From Burkholderiales bacterium (GTDB lineage Bacteria; Pseudomonadota; Gammaproteobacteria; Burkholderiales; Burkholderiaceae_C): a stretch of DNA of 42,082 nucleotides. The stretch covers positions 1 to 42,082 of the forward strand of contig JABEVE010000003.1 of the NCBI GenBank assembly GCA_013044035.1, written 5' to 3'. A model generated the notes under the pieces. It saw nothing but the letters and a program-made list of their open reading frames with translations. It made no database searches and was not told where the DNA came from. The position numbers and the translations under genes are program-made. Of this stretch, positions 21,759 to 32,525 are shown in pieces. Every line of letters starts with the position of its first letter. Position 1 is the first letter of the stretch.

Positions 21759-23252
21759 TCAAACGAAGGCGAACCGCACCGCGCCCCAGTGTTGACCGGC
21801 AAGCATCACCGGGCACGAGAGTTCGCGCATGATTTCCCCGGTGTCGCGGGCATAAACCTGGAGCAGGAAGTCTCGTCGGTTGCGTGCCGCCGCCAGGCCC
21901 ACTGGATCGTTGAAGAGGCGCATGGAGCGGTTGCCTGCAAGGTCTTTCTTCGGGTCGCCTGTGAGCGCCTGGTCGTAGATGGAGTTGTGCGCCGCGGCAT
22001 AGCCGTTGCGATCGACGAGCAGCACGTACTTGTACTGGTCAGACAAGGCGAGGTAGCGGTCTTCGATCGGTTGGATTTCGCGCTTGACCCAGGCGGTGAA
22101 GCGGGTCGTGTATTTCTGCGGATCGGTTCCAGAGACTGGCTGGTAGCTCTCGTCGAACAGGTCGCTTTCCGAGATTTCGCCACGTTCCATCGCCTGATGC
22201 AGGCGGGAGCCGATTTCGCCGACCACCTGATCGAGATGACCGAGCACGCGGCTGGCCTGCGAATCGGTGCGGAACAGCGTGGCCGACTCGAACAGGCGCT
22301 GGCTCTTGTTCAGAGCCAGTTCCAGTGCCTCGGCGATGCGGGTGGAAGTCTGCACGGTTTCGCTCGCATGGTTGCGAACCTGCGCGGCCATGGTGTTGAA
22401 GTCGGCATCAAGCCCGCGCAATTGCTGCGCCTGCCCAGTGATGGCCGTCGACGTGGCGGCGGCCTCCTTGGCCATGGTGTTGACGCCGCCGGCGATGTTG
22501 CCGAAATGCGCGGCAATGGCCTGCACCTGAGCCTGGTTGGCCTGCATGCGAGCCGAAAATTGCTCGGTGGCCTGGCCCACCGTCTGAAGCGATTTGTCGA
22601 TCACGCCGACCGCTTGGCCGATGTTGCCAACGGATTTTTCGGCCGTCTGCGCGAGCTTGCGGATTTCCTCGGCCACCACGGCGAAGCCACGCCCGGCCTC
22701 GCCCACGCGCGCCGCCTCGATGTTGGCGTTGAGTGCGAGCAGATTGGTTTTTTGCGCGATGTCGCGAATCATGCCCATCTGCTGCACCACACCAACGAAC
22801 TGCTGCTGCAGCGTCTGGATTTCGGCGTGGTTGCGCGCGTTGTGCTCCACCAGTTCGGCGAACATCGCGCGCATGCCCACGCTCTGGCTCGAACCTTGTG
22901 CGGCGAGTTGGTCGATGCGCGCCGCCTCGGCATCGACCTTCTGGACCTGGGCCAGAATGCCTTCGATACCCTGCAGCACGGATCCCAGTTCCTGGCCGAC
23001 ACTCGCGATGCGCTCGGTCTGCTGCTGCGCATGCGCCTGGCTCTGCGCCTGCGCAGTCTTGGAGTCGAAACGGATGCGGGCGATGGTGTAGGCCACGTCG
23101 GTGGCGCTGTCGGTCACATGGTCGACAAAATCGCGAACCACGCCGTGGAACCATTGCGCGGCCTCTGGCCGCTGTGCAATGCAAGCTTGGCGCAGATCGA
23201 TGGGTACCGCATTCGCTGCGGGCGGTTCAACTTTGGGGGCGGCGCTTGACAT
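21759..23252 (-). CDS. Soluble methyl-accepting chemotaxis protein with C-terminal Cache-like domain
   Basis: The 497-aa receptor has no membrane helix. The MCP signalling hairpin is at about 90-330, with the tip [19 protein letters not shown] and [15 protein letters not shown]. The sensor-like module is C-terminal (about 385-497): [51 protein letters not shown] and HWGAVRFAF. This reverses the usual order. The same tail is found in the MCP at 26815. ATG 23252 is chosen because AAGGAGGAA precedes it; two upstream in-frame ATGs would place that ribosome binding site inside the gene. It lies just downstream of the truncated MCP tail. Confidence 0.92.
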
Positions 23253-23280
23253 CGTGAGTTCCTCCTTGTCCATGTGCATA

Positions 23281-23421
23281 TCAATTTCCCGCGGTGAAGG
23301 TGAACACTGAGACGGCGTTCTGGAGTTGTTGCGCCTGGGCGTTCATTTCTTCGGCGGTGGCGGCGAGTTCTTCGGAGGCCGAGGCGTTTTGCTGCGTGAC
23401 GGCATTCTTTGGAAATTGTCA
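23281..23421 (-). pseudogene. Remnant of an MCP gene, last 45 codons only
   Basis: Directly after an in-frame TGA (23421-23419), the minus strand encodes a textbook MCP C-terminus: AVTQQNASASEELAATAEEM, then [14 protein letters not shown] and a stop at 23283-23281. QQNA-SA-EELAATAEEM is one of the most conserved MCP stretches. Nothing upstream encodes the rest of the receptor: the frame runs back into the truncated STAS gene. A deletion that removed the end of a STAS gene and almost all of an MCP gene explains this best. Confidence 0.8.
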
Positions 23422-23652
23422 AAAAAGGCATTGAGAAATTCGATGCGCTGGGTTAGAGGTGGCTCCGCTTGTTTGAACACGATCCCGGGGTGAGATAAGT
23501 GGATCGGCTGCGGATTGAAGTCCCTGCTGCAGCGGTTGTTGCTGCACCAGGGCGACGAGACGCTCGCGCACAGTGGAGGCAGCGTAGATGTCAAGCGCGC
23601 CGCGCATGTGCACGCTGCCAGTGGTTCCTGAGGGCTGCTCAAGCGTGGTCAT
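23419..23652 (-). pseudogene. Truncated STAS-domain gene
   Basis: The frame begins with ATG 23652, overlapping the previous stop (ATGA), and encodes the N-terminal half of a STAS (anti-sigma factor antagonist-like) domain: SVHMRGALDIYAASTVRERLVALVQQ. After about residue 40 the family similarity ends and an unrelated tail runs to a TGA at 23421-23419. The second half of the STAS fold, including the DxxGL loop, is missing. The stop is followed in the same frame by the MCP tail, so the two remnants were probably joined by a deletion. Confidence 0.7.
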
Positions 23653-24047
23653 CGTGGAGCAATCAGTTTGGATACGGCCGCCAGCATTTGCGCGGACTGG
23701 AAGGGCTTGACCACCCAAGCGCTTGCCCCAGCGGCCTGACCTTGCGCCTTCTTGTCTTCCTGGCTCTCGGTGGTGAGCATGATGATGGGGGTGAACTTGT
23801 AGTCGGGCTTTTGCTTGACCTCCTTGACCAACGCGATGCCGTCCATATTGGGCATGTTCACGTCGCTGATGATGAGGTGAATCTTGCGGCCGTCGAGCTT
23901 GGTCAGAGCATCGACGCCGTCACAGGCTTCGATAACCTCAGCCCGCGCTGGCGAGTGCAATATTGACCACTTGCACGCCCGGGCCTGAGCACAGTCGAGG
24001 CGCGGCGCATCAAGGATCTGGAAGCGCCTCGCCGCAGAGGGATGCAA
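23649..24047 (-). pseudogene. CheY-like response regulator missing its N-terminus
   Basis: From about 23945 downward the frame encodes a good receiver domain: EVIEACDGVDALTKL, LIISDVNMPNMDGIALVKEV with the phospho-accepting Asp, PIIMLTTESQ, and WVVKPF with the conserved Lys. The first strand and helix, including the acidic pair that binds magnesium, are absent. What precedes is a non-homologous 35-residue stretch with only a TTG start (24047). In another frame just upstream, VVNIALASAG resembles the lost alpha-1 region, suggesting a 2-base deletion before EVIEA plus further decay. A functional receiver is unlikely. Confidence 0.65.
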
Positions 24048-24152
24048 TCTGCTCGGATCGCGGTTTCTGTAGGTCTTGACTTTTTGCAGGGTCTGACATG
24101 GGCATCAATATTCCGTCGTGATGGCTGGCTGACAACCGAATGAGGATGACGC
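24048..24152. other. Gap between cheV and the receiver remnant
   Basis: No gene was recognised. A minus-strand ATG at about 24100 opens a 29-codon frame (MSDPAKSQDLQ start) that ends in a stop and does not match a receiver N-terminus. The stretch probably holds the decayed 5' end of the receiver gene or a junction left by rearrangement. Confidence 0.4.
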
Positions 24153-25118
24153 CTAGGCGCGCTGCGTGGCGGTATCGATCGCCTTCCGCAGCGCAGTGCC
24201 AAGCTCTTCGGCGACGAACTTGGCCACGTAGCCTTCGGCACCGACATTTCGCGCGTGGTCCTCGTTGGCCTGACCGGTGAGCGAGGAGTGAATCACAACC
24301 GGAATGCGCTTCAAGCGTTCGTCATCCTTGATCTTGCGGGTCAGGGTGAAGCCATCCATCTCGGGCATTTCCAGGTCAGTCAGTACGGCCGCCACCTTGT
24401 CGCCTACGCTCTTGCCTTCGGCTTTCGCATCATTCGCCAGCGCCTGCAGCTTGTCCCAGGCTTCCTTGCCGGTCTTGGTCATGACGTAGGGCGCATGTAG
24501 GGCCTGCAATACCTTTTCGATCTGGCTGCGAGCGACGAAGGAGTCGTCAGCGGCAAGGATCAAGGACCCGGGCCTCAGTTCCAGCTGCTGGCCTATCTGC
24601 AGGGCATTAACCTCCTGCACACGCGAAGGCAGCACATCGCGCAGAACTTTCTCCACGTCCAGTACGAGGGCCAGACGAGTTTTGTCGCTGTCCGCATCAA
24701 GCCGCGCAATGCTGGTCACCATACCGCCCACTGCATTGGCTTCGGCCGAGAGCACTTGGCTCCATTCCAGGCGCATGATTTCCTCGACTTCCTCCACAGC
24801 AAAGCCTTGCACCGAACGTTCGTACTCGGTCACGATGAGGATGTTCAGCGCCTTCGGCTTGCAACCAACCAGTGCGGGCAGGTCGATCACGGGCACGATC
24901 TGCCCGCGGATATTGGCCACGCCAAGGACATGCTGCGGTGCGCCCGGCATCGCCGTGATCGATGGCATCACCAGCGCCTCGCGCACCTTGAACACGTTGA
25001 TGCCGAAGATCTCGCGCCGCCTTCCGTTGTCTTCGCCGAGGCGGAAGAGCAACAGCTCAAATTTATTGGTGCCCGCAAGGCGCGAGCGTTCGTCGACTTC
25101 CTGGAGAACGGTGGACAT
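24153..25118 (-). CDS. cheV: Chemotaxis coupling protein CheV (CheW-receiver)
   Basis: CheV links receptors to CheA through a CheW domain and is tuned by phosphorylation of its receiver. The 321-aa product has a CheW domain (about 15-165: INVFKVREAL, VLGVANIRGQIVPVIDLPAL) and a receiver domain (about 190-315). Acidic residues are in AADDS, the phospho-accepting Asp248 in LTDLEMPEMDG, and Lys in EGYVAKF. GGAG precedes the ATG. It sits 47 bases after the CZB-MCP gene. No separate cheW is present in the window, so CheV may be the main coupler for this array unless cheW is elsewhere. Confidence 0.95.
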   Translation of the reverse strand: MSTVLQEVDERSRLAGTNKFELLLFRLGEDNGRRREIFGINVFKVREALVMPSITAMPGAPQHVLGVANIRGQIVPVIDLPALVGCKPKALNILIVTEYERSVQGFAVEEVEEIMRLEWSQVLSAEANAVGGMVTSIARLDADSDKTRLALVLDVEKVLRDVLPSRVQEVNALQIGQQLELRPGSLILAADDSFVARSQIEKVLQALHAPYVMTKTGKEAWDKLQALANDAKAEGKSVGDKVAAVLTDLEMPEMDGFTLTRKIKDDERLKRIPVVIHSSLTGQANEDHARNVGAEGYVAKFVAEELGTALRKAIDTATQRA

Positions 25119-25165
25119 GGGAGGCTCCGTGTGCTGGATGGATTGGATGGGTTGGAATGTCGGGA

Positions 25166-26581
25166 TCAGGGCACGAGCGCCATCAGCGCTTCAACACGTT
25201 CGGTGATGGCGTTGCTTGCGAGTTCGAGTTCGGCGGCGAGTTTTTCGATGCGCGGCAGGTCGCCGGCGCGAAGCGCCTCGACCAGCGCCTGGCCGGTGGT
25301 GTGCACGTTTTTGTGCGCGCCCTCGGCTGCGCCGAAACCTGCGTTAGAGCCGAAGTAGCTTTGGGCCGGACCGTAGTACCACTTGCCGAAGTAGCAGGCG
25401 CGGTCGTTGGACAGGTCCAAGTCGACGGTCTTGCCGGTTTGCGCCGCGGCGAGCAGGTCGCCGATCCAGGCGTCGTGCATCGCCAGAGAGATGCGAAGAG
25501 CCACTCCTGGGCTGCTGAATTTGCCCATTTCGGCTGCGCCCTGTTTGAGTTGGATGCGTGCCTGACCTACGGCTTCGAACATCGCTTCGAACTGGTCGGC
25601 CAGGGTCTGCAGTGTCTGGCTGGCGAGTTCGCCGCTTTGCTGCTGGTCGTGGGCATCGGCGACGAGTTTTTCCATCTGTGCACGCTGCGCGGCCGCGACC
25701 TGCAGCACGCTGTCCATGGTGCGGCGCACGCCGGTGGTGGCTGCCTGCACATTGCCCACGAGGTTGCCCACCTGTTCGATGCGCTGCACGGCGCCATCCA
25801 TGTCCCGTCCGAGGTCGGCGGAGTGGTCGCGGATGGCCAGGGTCAGATCGTCGATCCGGCGGGTGATCTCTGCGGTTTTGCGCGCAAGATTCCGCACTTC
25901 GCCGGCGACGACTGCGAACCCCCGGCCCGCCTCGCCTGCACGCGCAGCTTCGATCGCGGCGTTGAGCGCGAGCAGATTGGTCTGGTTGGCCACATCCTGG
26001 ATGCCGGCGGTGAGTTGCTCGACGGTCTGTACCGACTCGACGAAGCTGGCGAGCTTGCCCTGGGTGGAGGCGACGAAGCGGCTGACGTCATGGACCTCTT
26101 CCTGAACCGCGTCGAGCGCCTTCTGGCTGCGTGCAACGTTCTGCGAGGTGACATGGGTCTTGTCCTGCAAGTCCTGCATGCCCGCGGACGCGGTCTGCGT
26201 GCGGGTGGCTGCGAGTTGAAGGCGCTGCGCTGTGCCGAACACCTGGGAGGAAAGCTCGGCCAACTCGGTCTGAAAGCCTGAGACCTTTGCCTCGGCGAAT
26301 GCCAGGCTGCGCGTGGTGTGGCGCACGGTGTCCGTTCCGGCGAGGAGGGCTGAGCGCACGGCGGCGAATTGCCGCACCCAGTGGTCGGCGTCGATCAGGT
26401 CGATGGCCCGCAGTGCGCCGTCGCCCTTGCCGGTGAACAGAGCCAGCGCAGCCTGCAACACGGTTTCGCGGTCGCTTTTCAATCGAGCGAGCAGGCCGTC
26501 GGCCTGGGTGCCGAAGGCCGCACTGGCTGCGGGTTGCGCAGCCGAGTCCGCCGGTGCCGGAAGTTCCAGAAGGCTTTCCAT
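25166..26581 (-). CDS. Soluble methyl-accepting chemotaxis protein with CZB domain
   Basis: The 471-aa receptor lacks membrane helices. The signalling hairpin is central (about 90-340), with the tip [20 protein letters not shown] and [20 protein letters not shown]. The C-terminal CZB domain (about 360-440) has the full zinc set: H369 in HDAW, C396 in CYFGKWYYG and an HxxxH (HKNVH). CZB receptors are cytoplasmic sensors that respond to zinc, pH or oxidants. The start is ATG 26581 with GAGGAA upstream; a 13-residue N-terminal extension is possible but overlaps the small ORF before it. The next gene is cheV. Confidence 0.94.
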
Positions 26582-26597
26582 GATGCTTTCCTCGGGT

Positions 26598-26780
26598 TCA
26601 GTGCGACGTGCCGCCCGCATGGATCGACTGGTGGAGGCTGGCCATGGTGTCGACTGCCGTGCGATTCAGATTCATATAGAAGACCTTGTTCTCCATCGCT
26701 TCGTCGGCCTCAGCAAGCATTTCAGGCGCGCCCAGCGGGACAAGACGCGGTTCCGCGTAGGGCAATAGCGTGGAGTACAT
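26598..26780 (-). CDS. Small hypothetical protein between two MCP genes
   Basis: This 60-codon ORF fills most of the 233-base space between two receptor genes and ends 16 bases before the CZB-MCP start. GAGAG lies shortly before the ATG. The product is hydrophilic, with a probable helix over residues 18-55 ([32 protein letters not shown]). It has no membrane segment or family signature that I recognise. The sequence looks like coding rather than intergenic DNA, but it is short, so confidence is moderate. Confidence 0.5.
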
Positions 26781-26814
26781 GTTGGTTCACTCTCGTGGAG
26801 TATTGGCGCTTGGC

Positions 26815-28323
26815 TCACTGGAAACCCAGGCGCAAATTGCCCCAATGGCGGCTCCCGATCCGGATGGGAACGTCGAGCTCGCGCAGAACTTCGCCCGTGT
26901 CACGGGCGTAGATCATCAGGTGGCTGGGTTTGGTGTTGTGGGCCGCTTCCAACCCGAACGCGTCGTTGAAAATGCGCATGGCGCGGTTGCCAATCAAGTC
27001 TTTCTGTGGGTCGCCGGTCAGCGGCTTGTCGTAAATGCTGTTGTGTGTGGCGGTGTAGCCATTGCGGTCGACGGCGAAGGCAAACCGGAAGTTCGCGCTC
27101 TGTGCCAGGATGTCGTCAAGCACGGATTGCACACGCTGCTTGAACAGATTGGTGAAACGGGTTTGGTATTTCTGCGGCTGAGTGCCGGGAACCGGGACGT
27201 ATGCCTCGTCGAACAGATCGGCCTCGGCAATGCTGCCGTCCGAGATGGCTTGTTGCAAGACGCGGGTGATGTTTGCTGCGCCTTGCAGGGCCGAGCGCGA
27301 CGCCATGCTTAACTCGGAACCGGTGTCGAAATCCAGGTTCATTTCAAGCAGGGTCTTGTTCTCGTTCAAGGTTTCTAGCAAATTGGCCGAAACCTCTTCC
27401 GATCCCTTGATGCCATCTTCCGTGGCTTGACGAATGCCATCAGTCATTTGTCCAAAGCTGGCACTGAGTTCCGCAATTGTGTCCTGTGAGATACGGCTCA
27501 GGCGAGCAACTTCGGAGAACACCACCTGGTTATCGACGGTACCCTGTCTGATTTCGGCAAACCCTTTCAGCACGTCAGCCATCTGCACCGCGCTGCGGCT
27601 GACGGCAGTGCCCAGGCTTTCTGAGGAACTGTGCGCAACTGAGACGGAATCACGGATAGTCTCGATCGAAGTTCCGGCGTTCACTACGGTTTCGGCAACC
27701 ATTCTCGCCAGCCGTCGCACCTCGTCGGCGACCACGGCGAAGCCGCGTCCAGCCTCGCCGGCGCGGGCCGCTTCGATGGCTGCATTGAGCGCGAGGAGGT
27801 TGGTCTGGCCAGCGATGTCTTTGATGACGTGTAAAACCCGAGTGATGTCCTGCGCGTGCGTTTGGATGCGATCGAGATGTTCCCGGTTGCGGGTGGTTTC
27901 GGCCACTAAATTTTCGAACTGCTCGCGCGCAGCGCTGACGTCTTGTTGCCGTGTTTCGGTGACGCCGACAATGGTTTGGGCGCGTGTTGCGGCTTGCTGG
28001 ATTTGCGCTTCCATCGCATGCGTGGTCTGCACCACCTGCTCGAGATTGGCGCCGACATTGGCGATGAGTTGGTCTTGCTCAGCCTGCCGAGTTTTGATCG
28101 TTTGTACCGAGCCTCGCGGCGAGAAATAGCCTCGCGCCGCGGCTAGGCCGACCTTGGTGGAGCCGCGCTCCCAGGCCTGCGCTTTATCGCGCAGGAAGCT
28201 CAGGATGCTGCGATAGGGTTCCGGTAGGGCAGCGATGCGCTCTGTACGCGCGTCCAGAGGCCGGTGCGAAAGGGCGTCAATCAGATCGTCAGCTGCGTTG
28301 GGGGGTAAGTTGGCGTTGGGCAT
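26815..28323 (-). CDS. Soluble methyl-accepting chemotaxis protein with C-terminal Cache-like domain
   Basis: The 502-aa receptor has no membrane helix. An N-terminal helical region (1-85) precedes the MCP hairpin (about 90-330; [19 protein letters not shown] and [17 protein letters not shown]). Residues 385-502 carry the same C-terminal module as the MCP at 21759: [51 protein letters not shown] and HWGNLRLGF. The two look like paralogues that diverged at the N-terminus. The start is ATG 28323; a long upstream open frame runs antisense through the ODP gene and is a shadow. It is 37 bases after the ODP gene, in the same operon. Confidence 0.93.
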
Positions 28324-28360
28324 GGCATGGATCTGTGCTGGTGGATAGTGCGGCACGCAG

Positions 28361-29113
28361 TCAGGCAGCGACGCTGCCAACGTCAAGCGCGTCGAACCAT
28401 TCGATGAAGCGCTTGACGTTCTCGCCGGCGTAGATGGCGCCGTGTTGCGGGCATAAGAACTCGATGTCGAGCTTCGAGACGCGTTCGCACCAATGACGCT
28501 TGGCCGCGTTGCTGGGCATCCAGCGTCTGTGGAAAAACGTGGCATGTTTGATGTGCGCATCAAACGCCGATGAACTTTCGACATCGCGGCGGTCGACGAA
28601 TGCTGAATGGCCGGTGGGCAGCATTGCTGCGCCAACATCGCCAGAGAACAGCACCTTGGCTTGTGGGTCGTAGAGGTGGAAGTTGGCCGAGGAATGCAGG
28701 TAGTGCGCCGGAATGATCTGAAGCTTGGCGCTGCCCACGACCAGTTCGCCACCTTCGTCCGCAATGCCCTGAATGTTGGCTTCCAACGCCCCGTAGTGAC
28801 GGATAAAGCTCACCCACAATTGCGAGGTATGCCAAGTGATATCGGGATTACAGGCATTCCAAAGCGGCAGGCTCGAGGCGATGTCCGGGTCCTGATGGCT
28901 GACGAAGGCCTGTTTGATGGAGGATGGAGGCAGTACATCGACCAAGGCCGAGAACACTTGGGGAAAGATCTCGAAGCCACCCGGATCGCACAGCAGTGTG
29001 TGACCATCGACCTGCAAGGCGTAGACGTTCGAGTCGACAACGCGGGGTTCGTCCTGGTCGTAGACGGTGAACCATTGGTGTTGACCTTCGGAGTAGAACT
29101 TTTCAGCTTTCAT
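28361..29113 (-). CDS. Metallo-beta-lactamase-fold diiron oxygen-binding protein (ODP-like)
   Basis: The 250-aa protein has the metallo-beta-lactamase fold of flavodiiron proteins without the flavodoxin domain. Likely metal ligands are H73, D75 and D77 in [10 protein letters not shown]137 or H140 in [11 protein letters not shown]159 in LFSGD, and H224 in PQHG. ODP of Treponema denticola has such a site, binds oxygen as a peroxo species, and acts with chemoreceptors in aerotaxis. The gene lies between cheA and an MCP gene, overlapping the preceding gene by ATGA, which strongly suggests a chemotactic oxygen-sensing role. Metal content and partner are inferred. Confidence 0.85.
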
Positions 29114-29724
29114 GGAAGAACCTTTTCGATGTGTTCGGCATAGGTACGCAGGAGGTCGCGCACCTGCACCACGGCGTTGTCCATATCGGAGGAAACCTGG
29201 GCCAGCGCAGCGCGCCCATCGCCCTTGAGCGCAGCTTCGATGCGGCCGTTGACGACCACATATTCAAGTTCTGCAACGACGCTCTCGAAGCGAGCTAGCG
29301 CTTGGCGCAAACGCATACCAGCACGTCTGCTTTGCTCGTTGCGAGCGAGCAGTTGTCGCTGATGTTGCTCGAGAGCGCGTTCCAGCCCAGAAGCCTTTTG
29401 CCGCACGGCATCCGGCAGGACACTGAGCTTTTCGATCTGTTGGGTGTCACGCAGTGTTTGCATGAAACCCAGCATCATCGGCTGGATGGCGTGCTGCACA
29501 TCGGTTGCCGCGACTTGGAGTTGTTGCGCGCCTTCGCGAAACGATTGCGCAACCACGCCATAGCCGGCCAGCACCTTGCCATGGCGCTTGACCAGAACCT
29601 GGGCGTTCAGGGCTTTTCGATCAATTTCGCGCAGCCGACGCTGCAGCTGCCCCTGAAAGGCAAAGGTGGCATCGGCGACACCGACGAAGCCGTGACGCAT
29701 TTGCGATAGAGTGGGTGATGTCAT
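29110..29724 (-). CDS. Coiled-coil protein with an MCP-tip-like motif
   Basis: The 204-aa protein is all-helical with no membrane segment. Near the C-terminus (about 155-180), VVVNGRIEAALKGDGRAALAQV can be aligned without gaps to the MCP hairpin tip ([19 protein letters not shown]): Asn, Ile-Glu-Ala-Ala, the second Gly and several following positions agree. The rest, about 150 residues of helix, is not typical MCP, and the glycine hinge is weak. It lies 10 bases after cheA (AAGGAA site) and overlaps the ODP start by ATGA. It may be a reduced receptor or adaptor that connects ODP to CheA. No named family is recognised. Confidence 0.7.
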   Translation of the reverse strand: MTSPTLSQMRHGFVGVADATFAFQGQLQRRLREIDRKALNAQVLVKRHGKVLAGYGVVAQSFREGAQQLQVAATDVQHAIQPMMLGFMQTLRDTQQIEKLSVLPDAVRQKASGLERALEQHQRQLLARNEQSRRAGMRLRQALARFESVVAELEYVVVNGRIEAALKGDGRAALAQVSSDMDNAVVQVRDLLRTYAEHIEKVLP

Positions 29725-29734
29725 GCTGGTTCCT

Positions 29735-31615
29735 TCAAGCGGCCTGCGCCGTGCGCATGGCTCGGGTGAGTGACTGCATGTCGAGGATGAGCACGACGTC
29801 ACCACTGCCGGATATGGTGGCGCCCTGGTACCACGACGACTGGGCGGAGATATCGAGTGGCTTGACCACCGAGTCCTCGGTACCCACTGCTTCGGAGACG
29901 ATCAGCAATCCCTGTTCCGTGAGAATGCCTTCGCAGGGGTCACGCCCCAAACGCAATGGCACGCCCTGCAACTGCAGACCGAGGTCGACGTAAGGGACGA
30001 TGCGGTCTTGTCCTACCTGCGCCATCAACCTTCCCGAGATGCTGTGGACTTGTTCGGGGTCGACTTCCATCAGGTTGTCGACCACGGACACCGGCAAGGC
30101 ATAGGTTTCACGCCGCAACTTGAAGTACAGCACCGGCAGCACGGCCAGCGTCAAGGGCAACTCCAGCGTCATGGTGGTGCCTTGGTTGGGACGTGTCGCG
30201 ATGTCCACACGGCCGCGCAGCTGCTGCACGGCCGAACGCACCACATCCATTCCAACACCGCGCCCGGAGAGTTCGCTGACCTGCTCTTTGGTGGAAAACC
30301 CGGGGAGGAAGATCAGGTCGAGCATCTCACGTTCAGACAGGCGCGCGGCGTCAGCCGCAGAGATGATGCCCTTGCCGAGGGCCGACTGCATGATCTTGTG
30401 CGGGCTCATGCCGCGCCCGTCGTCGACCACCAGAATTTGAACCTTGTCACCCAGGTGGATCGCGACAACTTTGAGTGTGCCCTCCTCGGATTTTCCGGCG
30501 GTCTGCCGAACTCGCGGTGTTTCCAGGCCGTGGTCCAGCGCATTGCGCACCAGGTGGATGAGCGGGCCGGATAGGGCGTCAATCACGGTCTTGTCGATTT
30601 CCACATCCTCGCCCTCGAGCTCCAGGCGCACCTTCTTGGAGAGATTGCGGCTGGCGTCACGCACGACGCGCGGCAGACTTTGGAACAGGCGTTTGCAGGG
30701 TTGCATACGCAGGCGCATGACGGTGCTTTGAAGGTCGTTAACTGCCAAGTCGGTCTCGCGCACCATGCGCACCAGGGCCTCGTCCCCCTGGTGTAGCCGC
30801 GCTACGGCGGCCGACAGGCGGTTGCGTAGAAGCACTAGTTCGCCAACTTGGTTCATCGCCTGATCCAGGCGCGCGGAATCGACGCGGATGGTCGTGTCCT
30901 CACGGCTCTGTGATTCGACGCTCTGGGTGGCTGGCGCGGGTGGCGTCGAGCTGGCGGCCGTGTGCTGCGCCGTGGCTGGGGCCATTGGCAAGGTGACGAT
31001 ACCTGGTGCGCCGCCCTTGCCATAAAGCGAGTCAAGTGTCTGGTCGAACAGGGCTTCCAGAGCGTCCGCGTCTTGGGTCTCTGCGACAGGAGCGGTACTT
31101 GCCTGTTTTTTCTCGACATACAGGCCAATCTGGCCGGTGACATCGGCCCGAGGTTCCAACCAAGTGTGCTCAGTTTCAGCCTGTTGAGGCGCCTCGTGTT
31201 CTACGAACTTTGGCTGGGACGAGGTCGTTTGCTCCCCGCGGGCGCAGGCCTGCACCAAAGCCCCAAGCTCGGCAGGTCCAGGTTGGGGATTTTCCCCTTG
31301 GGCCATTTCATCAAGCATGCGCTCGATTACGTCCGTGGAGCGCAGGATGGCGTCGATCATGCCGCTGTTGGCGGTCAACTGGTGCGCGCGTAGTTTGTCG
31401 AGCAGATCTTCAAGGTGGTGGCACCACTCCACCATATGTTGTGCTTCGAGGAAACCAGCGCCGCCCTTGAGCGTATGGAACGCACGGAAGATGGCGCCGA
31501 GCACGCCTGTGTCAGTGGGTGTGGCCTCCAGGCGCAGCAACTGGGCCTGAGCGTCAGCCAGCAGTTCGCGGGATTCGGCAATAAATTCCTGCAGAATGTC
31601 ATTGTCCATGGCCAT
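29735..31615 (-). CDS. cheA: Chemotaxis histidine kinase CheA
   Basis: CheA autophosphorylates and passes phosphate to CheY. The 626-aa protein contains P1 with phospho-His47 (FRAFHTLKGGAGF), a linker of about 130 residues where P2 is degenerate or absent, P3 dimerisation (DSARLDQAMNQVGELVLLRNR), and the P4 ATPase: N box HLVRNALDHGLETP, G1 VVDDGRGM, F box FLPGFSTKEQ, G2 GRGVGMDVV. P5 regulatory domain is at about 490-626. The start is ATG 31615 with GAGG upstream; ATG 31609 is an alternative. It follows cheZ by 8 bases. The minus-strand order cheY-cheZ-cheA is typical of beta/gammaproteobacteria. Confidence 0.97.
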   Translation of the reverse strand: MAMDNDILQEFIAESRELLADAQAQLLRLEATPTDTGVLGAIFRAFHTLKGGAGFLEAQHMVEWCHHLEDLLDKLRAHQLTANSGMIDAILRSTDVIERMLDEMAQGENPQPGPAELGALVQACARGEQTTSSQPKFVEHEAPQQAETEHTWLEPRADVTGQIGLYVEKKQASTAPVAETQDADALEALFDQTLDSLYGKGGAPGIVTLPMAPATAQHTAASSTPPAPATQSVESQSREDTTIRVDSARLDQAMNQVGELVLLRNRLSAAVARLHQGDEALVRMVRETDLAVNDLQSTVMRLRMQPCKRLFQSLPRVVRDASRNLSKKVRLELEGEDVEIDKTVIDALSGPLIHLVRNALDHGLETPRVRQTAGKSEEGTLKVVAIHLGDKVQILVVDDGRGMSPHKIMQSALGKGIISAADAARLSEREMLDLIFLPGFSTKEQVSELSGRGVGMDVVRSAVQQLRGRVDIATRPNQGTTMTLELPLTLAVLPVLYFKLRRETYALPVSVVDNLMEVDPEQVHSISGRLMAQVGQDRIVPYVDLGLQLQGVPLRLGRDPCEGILTEQGLLIVSEAVGTEDSVVKPLDISAQSSWYQGATISGSGDVVLILDMQSLTRAMRTAQAA

Positions 31616-31623
31616 ATGCGTCC

Positions 31624-32118
31624 TCAGATTCCAAGTTCGGCGAGCAGGTCGTCGACGTTGCTCTGGTCCATGCGTTGGCCGCAGAAAGTGTCGTCGGCAG
31701 CAGTCGCGTCGCCTTGCAAATAACCGAGTTGCAGCAAAGCGTCCTGGATGCGTTGCTCCACTGCTTGCAGCAGGGAGATGGTTTTTTTCAGTCTCTGGCC
31801 GGCCAAGTCCTGGCCCTGCTGACTGGTGAGAATGGCCTGTAGATGCGCGTCCAGAAGGTTGAGGCGGGTGTCGATGAAGTCGCCGTTGGTGGCACGAATT
31901 GCGGCCACTTCCGACTGTGCGGCTTCCACCGCTTCCAGCGTCGCCATGGCTTGTTGTTCGCTCAAGGCCAAAGCTTCCTGCAGTGGATGGCTGGCACCGG
32001 GAAGATCGTGGGAAGCGTGCATGATGCGCTGCACCCCTTCCGTCAGCAGCGCATCGGCCTCTCGCAGATTGTTAACGGCTGCAGAGGGCGGCGCTTGTTG
32101 GGCCACTAGGTCGTTCAT
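31624..32118 (-). CDS. cheZ: CheY-P phosphatase CheZ
   Basis: CheZ dephosphorylates CheY. At 164 aa it is shorter than enteric CheZ (about 214 aa), mostly through a reduced N-terminus. The long-helix active site is clear in [18 protein letters not shown], with the catalytic Asp and Gln four residues apart (DxxxQ). The C-terminal CheY-binding peptide is [11 protein letters not shown]. Its ATG overlaps the cheY stop (ATGA at 32115-32118), so the kinase output protein and its phosphatase are co-translated. Confidence 0.93.
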
Positions 32119-32513
32119 GACGCCAGCCCTCCATGGAGTCGCTGAAGGATCACATCAATCTTGGCCTTCAGGGTGTCAGCCGGGAAAGGTTTGACGATAT
32201 AGCCGTTCACCCCTGCCTGCGCTGCCGCCAGAATGTTCTCTTTCTTGGCTTCCGCTGTCACCATGAGTACAGGTAAAGCGCGGATGATCGCCTCGTCGGA
32301 GGCACGAATGTGGCGTAGCAGATCGATGCCCTGCATGTTGGGCATGTTCCAGTCGGTCACGACAAATTCAATGCCTCCGGCCTGAATACGCTTCAAAGCC
32401 TGGACGCCGTCCTCGGCCTCGTCGATGGTGCCGGTGACATGTCCGGTCTGCATCAGTAGACCCCTAACGATGCGCCGCATCGTAGGGAAATCGTCAACAA
32501 CAAGGAATTTCAA
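32115..32513 (-). CDS. cheY: Chemotaxis response regulator CheY
   Basis: CheY-P binds the flagellar motor switch. The 132-aa product has the acidic pair D8-D9 ([10 protein letters not shown]), phospho-accepting D54 ([10 protein letters not shown]), Thr in MVTAEA, and Lys in GYIVKPF. No ATG fits: TTG 32513 lies 6 bases after GGAG and yields MKFLVVDD, the usual CheY N-terminus; an in-frame TTG 32525 would add four residues but has no ribosome binding site. A sigma-28-like promoter ends 42 bases upstream. This is the only intact CheY in the window. Confidence 0.95.
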
Positions 32514-32525
32514 GGACCACTCCAA

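Follow-up and report, generated by a model that had tools for sequence, protein, structure and literature searches.

A probable miniature single-chain chemoreceptor paired with an oxygen-binding di-iron protein in a Burkholderiales chemotaxis cluster

The window analysed here is a stretch of 42,082 nucleotides from a Burkholderiales bacterium (assembly GCA_013044035.1, contig JABEVE010000003.1, positions 1 to 42,082). On its minus strand, a gene for a 204-residue protein (29110..29724) lies between cheA (29735-31615) and the gene of an oxygen-binding di-iron protein (ODP, 28361-29113). The 204-residue protein is best explained as a miniature single-chain chemoreceptor (mini receptor), a bundle with two tips related to those of methyl-accepting chemotaxis proteins (MCPs) and with ODP as its sensor subunit. 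The probability of this reading is put at roughly 70%. Both halves of the protein are homologous to MCP tips, the two tips have diverged in a complementary manner, the gene is paired with the ODP gene and shares its descent, and it co-occurs with CheA. From these observations we infer binding of ODP, docking in the chemoreceptor array, control of CheA and the direction of this control, and a fixed orientation of the bundle. Swimming bacteria probably use the mini receptor and ODP together as a compact oxygen sensor.

The mini receptor and its partner gene

The mini receptor was assigned from its open reading frame (ORF), family alignments and an AlphaFold2 model. The ORF comprises 204 codons, starts with the ATG at 29724 and ends with the TGA at 29112-29110. 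The start codon of the ODP gene (ATG at 29113-29111) overlaps this stop codon, which gives an ATGA stop/start overlap at 29110..29113 of the minus strand. An earlier reading of the window from its letters (the original prediction) had placed the gene between cheA and the ODP gene and had noticed the ATGA coupling. These observations are confirmed, and the interpretation that was attached to them is partly supported.

ODP (28361..29113, minus strand, 250 residues) is the presumed partner of the mini receptor. It belongs to PF19583 (E 1.4e-65; 221.3 bits, cut-off 27.2) and aligns with the ODP of PDB entry 6qrq (E 4.2e-58). The HQDPD, AHYLHS, SGD and PQHGA stretches, which we take to be those holding the di-iron ligands, are present in this alignment.

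Homology of both halves to the MCP tip

A profile of the whole family was compared with 177,635 PDB sequences, and its first 12 matches are all MCPs (best E 2.8e-13). The C-terminal half was compared with the same sequences by a profile of ~100 residues, made from 24 C-terminal halves with the divergent L062 left out. Here the first nine matches are all MCPs (best E 4.7e-9), and the likeness of the C-terminal motif to the MCP tip is therefore beyond chance. Both profiles align their motifs to the same tip of 3g67 and 3g6b, which we take to be the T. maritima soluble receptor Tm14, with 3ur1 and 4jpb as fragments. The original prediction had aligned NGRIEAALKGDGRAALAQV (residues 159-177, with the NGRIEAALKG motif) to the MCP tip without gaps. 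This alignment holds.

The remainder of the protein had been regarded as unlike a standard receptor. That statement overlooked another tip, the stronger of the two, at residues 31-67. The Pfam MCPsignal model matches residues 38-95 of the 204-residue protein (E 3.5e-4) with 20.9 bits, below its cut-off of 34.6. This weak match covers the N-terminal tip and not the motif noticed first. A single hairpin with a tip at the C-terminal side only is ruled out, since the N-terminal tip is the stronger one in both the Pfam match and the PDB profile match.

Conservation is highest in residues 37-60 and 157-168, with a mean column entropy of 1.6–1.9 bits (2.4–3.2 bits elsewhere). The highest hydropathy value over 19 residues is 0.92, and there is no membrane segment. 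No other Pfam domain scores above its cut-off and no sensing domain is present. With the 204-residue sequence alone, phmmer found no match in the PDB at E<=1, and tblastn found none in plasmids at E<=0.01.

Low-complexity helical proteins yield many weak matches. The likeness of the motifs could thus be an accident of helical composition, that is, a coiled-coil convergence. This is hardly credible in view of the MCPs that occupy the first 12 and the first nine PDB ranks. Furthermore, hhalign aligns the family to MCPs in the same register with scores above those of heptad-block shuffles, the match is lost upon shuffling or reversal, and conservation falls on the columns of the MCP tip.

Complementary residues of the two tips

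For comparison, the Asn of the MCP tip is numbered as position 0. In 73 MCP domains from 37 fetched loci, Asn at 0, Glu at +4, Arg at +7, Gly at +9 and Gly-Arg-Gly-Phe at +12 to +15 are invariant; since these domains come mostly from relatives of the window's genome, this invariance cannot be taken to hold for MCPs in general.

Tip 1 (residues 31-67, LREIDRKALNAQVLVKRHGKVLAGYGVVAQSFREGAQ; 29524..29634, minus strand) is identified as a homologue of the MCP hairpin tip by the MCPsignal match, the PDB profile and the column counts. Its sequence is LREIDRKALNAQVLVKRHGK-LAGYGVVAQ-FREGAQ. Asn40, Arg47, Gly49 and Gly54-Tyr55 are kept, and the Glu at +4 is absent (Leu44). Tip 2 (residues 152-181, ELEYVVVNGRIEAALKGDGRAALAQVSSDM; 29182..29271, minus strand) contains the motif noticed first and is identified by the C-terminal-half profile, the column counts and a helix break at residues 167-171 of the predicted model. 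Glu163 is kept, whereas Arg at +7 and Gly-Phe at +14/+15 are missing.

The same division is seen in 25 divergent members of the family. Tip 1 has Asn in all 25 of them and Glu(+4) in none, Arg in 21 or Lys in four, Gly(+9) in 21, Gly(+14) in 22 and Phe or Tyr at +15 in 24. Tip 2 has Asn in 14, Glu in 23, Arg in five, Gly(+9) in 13 and Gly(+14) in none, with Leu at +15 in 22. Six of seven members outside the alignment were read by eye; Glu(+4) is present in tip 2 of all six and in tip 1 of none. One complete canonical tip per chain (N..E..R.GE.GRGF) is not found, and each tip misses different residues among those invariant in the 73 MCP domains.

In receptor arrays, the Glu at +4 of one dimer and the Arg at +7 of its neighbour are described as an ionic lock (Glu385 and Arg388 of Tsr, PMC8144572). 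One subunit of an MCP dimer is located at the trimer axis and the other one is peripheral and accessible to CheA and CheW (Mowery et al., PMC4692393). Since the two tips of the mini receptor carry different conserved residues, each of them probably has a fixed place; the divided pattern suggests one place per tip. More tentatively, and with somewhat less than an even chance of being correct, the protein represents an unnamed, widespread family of minimal chemoreceptors, in which a duplication fused two MCP tips and labour was then divided between them. In this case, residues that both subunits of a normal MCP retain, namely the ionic-lock pair of Glu and Arg and the Gly-Phe turn, would each be kept mainly in one tip.

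The missing residues can also be read in a different way. A tip-like bundle may enter receptor trimers or CheA/CheW rings as a docking platform, which brings ODP to the array or spoils kinase activation with no conformational signalling. Glu(+4) of tip 1 and Gly(+14) and, mostly, Arg(+7) of tip 2, all invariant in the 73 MCP domains, are indeed absent. Electron cryotomography of T. denticola with and without ODP also suggested an effect of ODP on the ordering of CheA and no obvious place of ODP in the array (PMC7666581). Nevertheless, the strong conservation of both tips and the pairing with ODP suggest more than a tether, and the known ODP-coupled receptor of this organism, TDE2496, is described as able to modulate CheA (PMC7666581). 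A mere docking platform is therefore considered unlikely, and a signalling receptor is preferred.

Predicted structure

The AlphaFold2 model of the 204-residue protein (pLDDT 89.0, pTM 0.82) supports a single-chain antiparallel four-helix bundle. Helices comprise residues 6-101 and 114-166 of the model, with a short helix at 105-110 and the break at 167-171 in tip 2. The predicted loop joining the two hairpins (residues 102-113; 29386..29421, minus strand) corresponds to the break between the two long helices and would be located at the bundle end away from the tips. An antiparallel hairpin had been anticipated in the original prediction; the model contains an antiparallel helical bundle, which is read as two tandem hairpins instead of one hairpin with a C-terminal tip.

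The hairpin arms of the model are about 29–53 residues long, which corresponds to about 12–14 heptads per hairpin by length. In MCPs, the distance between the tip and the methylation region exceeds such arm lengths. Methylation helices are not found in the mini receptor, the modelled arms being too short to reach the methylation region.

Pairing and common descent with ODP

The gene of the mini receptor almost always adjoins that of ODP, a sensor protein that binds oxygen and iron. A named genome collection contains 36 related loci, from Thiomonas, Tibeticola sediminis, Burkholderiaceae, one 'Acetofilamentum' and metagenome assemblies. The gene order CheA-mini receptor-ODP is intact in 32 of the 36 as well as in the window, and in L038 and L043 it is cut by a contig edge. 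The 4-base overlap of the mini receptor and ODP genes is present in 32 of the 33 loci with this operon (the window included); the exception is L024 with a gap of 41. In 20 more distant pairs, the two genes overlap in 13 cases and are separated by 8–25 bases in seven. Profile searches found the same operon in L052-L054 (34–37% identity) and further members with 10–22% identity, which lie next to ODP only or to other che genes.

A profile search blind to gene position was carried out in 158 genomes of the class. It found 15 members in 14 genomes (E 4e-19 or better, frames of 191–321 residues), and the next matches (1.8e-16 and weaker) are mostly long frames like those of ordinary MCPs. All 15 members are located directly upstream of an ODP match (only partial in G621). 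Eight of the 15 are profile members or the query itself; the other seven, from outside the profile, are likewise all directly upstream of ODP. Linkage to ODP, which the original prediction had expected of homologues, was thus found wherever the family was detected blind to position. A survey starting from ODP covered 59 loci, which are the best-scoring ODP matches and not a random draw. In 15 of these, a member of ~200 residues lies directly upstream of ODP, and a full MCP was reported in none of the 59 within the stretch of at most 1.5 kb fetched per side.

In an ODP tree of 65 rows, the 24 ODPs coupled to a mini receptor form one side of a branch with a support of 100/99, so that the label needs a single change. 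Four loci were omitted from this tree: L105, L111 and L116, for which the motif was not found, and L079, which is the same place as L057. The distances of the mini receptor and ODP correlate in a mirror-tree comparison of 24 pairs with r 0.90, a value which includes shared species descent and two rows with very long branches; none of 2000 permutations was as high.

Genome G571 carries two separate pairs of mini receptor and ODP (contigs C104 and C214). ODP matches also occur inside frames of about 590–1730 residues in numerous genomes from the same phylum (for example G739:C1:112863, G736:C141 and G622:C6); these are possibly fusions to other signalling domains. Some profile matches were rejected. 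L005-L007 (1e-4 to 9e-4; frames of 617, 526 and 1528 residues) and L051 (7.2e-6; frame of 709 residues) were set aside because the length of their frames, the sole criterion used, pointed to ordinary MCPs or to long helical proteins. The 214-residue frame of L154 reads as a piece of a frameshifted ordinary MCP.

Co-occurrence with CheA

The CheA family PF02895 is present in all 24 carrier genomes tested and in 78 of 143 genomes of the class, where PF02895 also matches CheA-type kinases of other pathways and the sample of 143 itself contains some carriers. In ten of the 24 carriers, cheA is found in the operon or the fetched neighbourhood. In each of the remaining 14, a CheA-type kinase is encoded elsewhere in the genome. 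PF02895 is likewise found in six additional genomes whose members lie outside the profile (G604, G613, G615, G658, G627 and G621).

With the proteins of the window as queries, no chemotaxis homologue besides the mini receptor and ODP was found in nine of 14 fetched neighbourhoods (L122-L124, L126-L128, L131, L132 and L134). The neighbours in five of these nine include atp, racemase, kinase, tyrosinase and nucleotidase genes. Because many pairs stand without other chemotaxis genes, the unit is the pair of mini receptor and ODP, and gene position is not what links it to CheA. Isolated pairs among such unrelated neighbours would also be expected if the protein served a pathway other than chemotaxis and the MCP tips were a relic in an ODP-binding bundle. 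The general presence of a CheA-type kinase in the carriers, including all 14 without cheA nearby, and the retention of the most conserved positions of the MCP tip make this improbable.

Observations that weigh against a chemoreceptor

The interpretation as a chemoreceptor has to be weighed against a number of observations. None of ten relatives scanned reaches the MCPsignal cut-off (best 28.9 bits), and hence none of 11 members in all. A score below the Pfam cut-off is a feature of the mini receptor, and the family may be unnamed because no scanned member passes this cut-off. When the 24 C-terminal halves were scanned singly, MCPsignal was not among the 25 most frequently matched of 88 families. 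Direct alignment of the N-terminal with the C-terminal half is borderline (27.8, with 28.4 for the best of 50 shuffles), and this repeat test is not used as proof.

In both models, DSSP assigns helix 1 without a break across tip 1 (6-101 and 4-106). The turn of tip 1 is therefore not visible in the coordinates but deduced from the bundle match and a dip in pLDDT. Common four-helix bundles make up the structural neighbours, which give no hint of a function. Among the 50 matches listed, the MCP signalling domain is absent from both VIA-align structural lists, whereas ligand-binding domains of chemoreceptors (McpS and PilJ) are among the matches listed. This absence excludes nothing, as a lone MCP chain is a single hairpin.

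Furthermore, 44 of the 59 ODP loci have no such partner. Two of the members outside the profile (G604 and G613) belong to genera that are also represented within it, and unlinked members may be missed because the profile was built mostly from ODP-linked ones. L062 (G164) is divergent with degenerate tips, yet it is located directly upstream of ODP. In L037 and L041, the mini receptor gene is an orphan second copy, with neither CheA nor ODP in the fetched stretch; both assemblies also have an operon copy. Linkage to cheA is not constant either, as the dispersed pairs show. Hence two outcomes that the original prediction had named as unfavourable, loss of the cheA linkage and paralogues with no ODP nearby, did occur in a weak form.

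Two side observations concern these loci. Both motifs are kept in the orphans (L037:2123-2761 and L041:472-1080), and the gene after the orphan copies looks to us like a nickel/cobalt transporter. L062 and its ODP are both on long branches.

Proposed mode of action and related systems

In the proposed mechanism, two tandem MCP hairpin tips in one chain would fold into one antiparallel four-helix bundle. A single polypeptide would thereby mimic the kinase-contacting end of an MCP homodimer as a built-in pseudo-dimer that lacks membrane, sensing, HAMP and methylation parts. ODP, encoded by the overlapping gene, would be the sensor subunit and relay its oxygen/iron state to the bundle. Docked in the array via its tips, the bundle may then alter the activity of CheA. 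One tip would point towards the trimer axis and the other one towards CheA/CheW (here CheV).

A comparable arrangement is described for T. denticola, in which the ODP TDE2498 has the cognate sensorless cytoplasmic receptor TDE2496 (PMC7666581). Like TDE2496, which is described as able to modulate CheA, the mini receptor is directly linked to ODP and has neither a membrane segment nor a sensing domain. Unlike TDE2496, which is described as an MCP homologue, it has two degenerate tips in a chain of ~200 residues; by this description the two are set apart.

Tm14 (3g67 and 3g6b) is the top PDB match for the whole profile and for the C-terminal half and has a similar length (213 residues). It has one canonical tip per chain, whereas the mini receptor has two different tips.

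A natural single-chain MCP in R. centenum and engineered single-chain MCPs are also known (PMC4692393). These share with the mini receptor two MCP signalling parts per polypeptide. They are described there as single-chain forms of MCP signalling domains with unknown function, or are fusions of whole subunits. In contrast, the halves of the mini receptor are reduced to the tip, are unlike each other and are accompanied by a paired sensor gene. MCP heptad classes range from 24H to 64H (PMC6943060). The mini receptor shares the homology of the tip with them, but at about 12–14 heptads per hairpin it is below the smallest class listed. Protein profiles for MAC1 and MAC2 exist in MiST3 (PMC6943060). 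CheO of Campylobacter was considered since it is named beside ODP in the literature, and the available text gives no sign of a linkage to ODP; CheWS of T. denticola, as described, is a different thing.

The original prediction knew of no named family with this design, which holds for Pfam and NCBIfam. Sensorless receptors that are coupled to ODP have been described in the literature, as have natural MCPs of a single chain, so that each half of the general idea is published. Neither the family nor its minimal size and complementary tips were found in Pfam, NCBIfam or the open-licence literature searched.

The subunits of MCPs in arrays occupy different places yet are identical, and their roles are therefore hard to separate. 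Engineered single-chain receptors made for this purpose showed subunit swapping (PMC4692393). If the mini receptor is truly a single-chain receptor of natural origin whose tips differ, the roles of the subunits could be examined directly by one point mutation per tip. It further offers a candidate receptor of very small size, whose cytoplasmic oxygen/iron sensor is defined, and the family profile could find ODP-linked receptors that are missed by the MCP model of Pfam.

Other genes of the chemotaxis cluster

Genes for CheY-like and CheZ-like proteins and cheA precede the mini receptor gene, which is followed by ODP, three MCPs and CheV. All genes given with domain matches below are on the minus strand. 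CheA (29735..31615, 626 residues), the upstream gene of the operon, has Hpt, H-kinase_dim, HATPase_c and CheW domains. The CheY-like response regulator is encoded at 32115..32525 (PF00072, E 2.8e-27) and the CheZ-like phosphatase of 164 residues at 31624..32118 (PF04344, E 2.7e-8). The latter is short, and its best stretch matches the CheZ profile in the C-terminal half only.

CheR was not found in the source genome (95% complete) at E<=0.001, nor at E<=1e-5 in G025, G688 and G893, which have the same operon type. It is present in 20 of the 24 carrier genomes. Because CheR was not found in these four genomes, receptor methylation may be dispensable for this type of operon, and the cluster is perhaps a methylation-free chemotaxis system.

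The three MCPs (21759-23279, 25166-26620 and 26815-28764) have no membrane-like segment according to hydropathy, and the cluster therefore looks wholly cytoplasmic. The MCP at 25166..26620 is soluble with a C-terminal CZB domain (PF00015 and PF13682). For the MCP at 26815..28764 (PF00015, E 2.7e-29), the listed start overlaps ODP, and the actual start probably lies downstream of 28361. This protein and the MCP at 21759-23279 have, as judged by eye, a similar C-terminal stretch of ~120 residues past the MCP domain, for which Pfam gave no match at E<=1. The coupling protein of the cluster is CheV (24153..25118, PF01584 and PF00072), which consists of a CheW domain and a receiver. Within positions 21759-32525 of the window, CheW domains occur only in CheV and CheA, and CheV is the sole stand-alone CheW-domain protein. 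A receiver-like ORF, recognized by eye, is located downstream of the mini receptor at 23649-24047.
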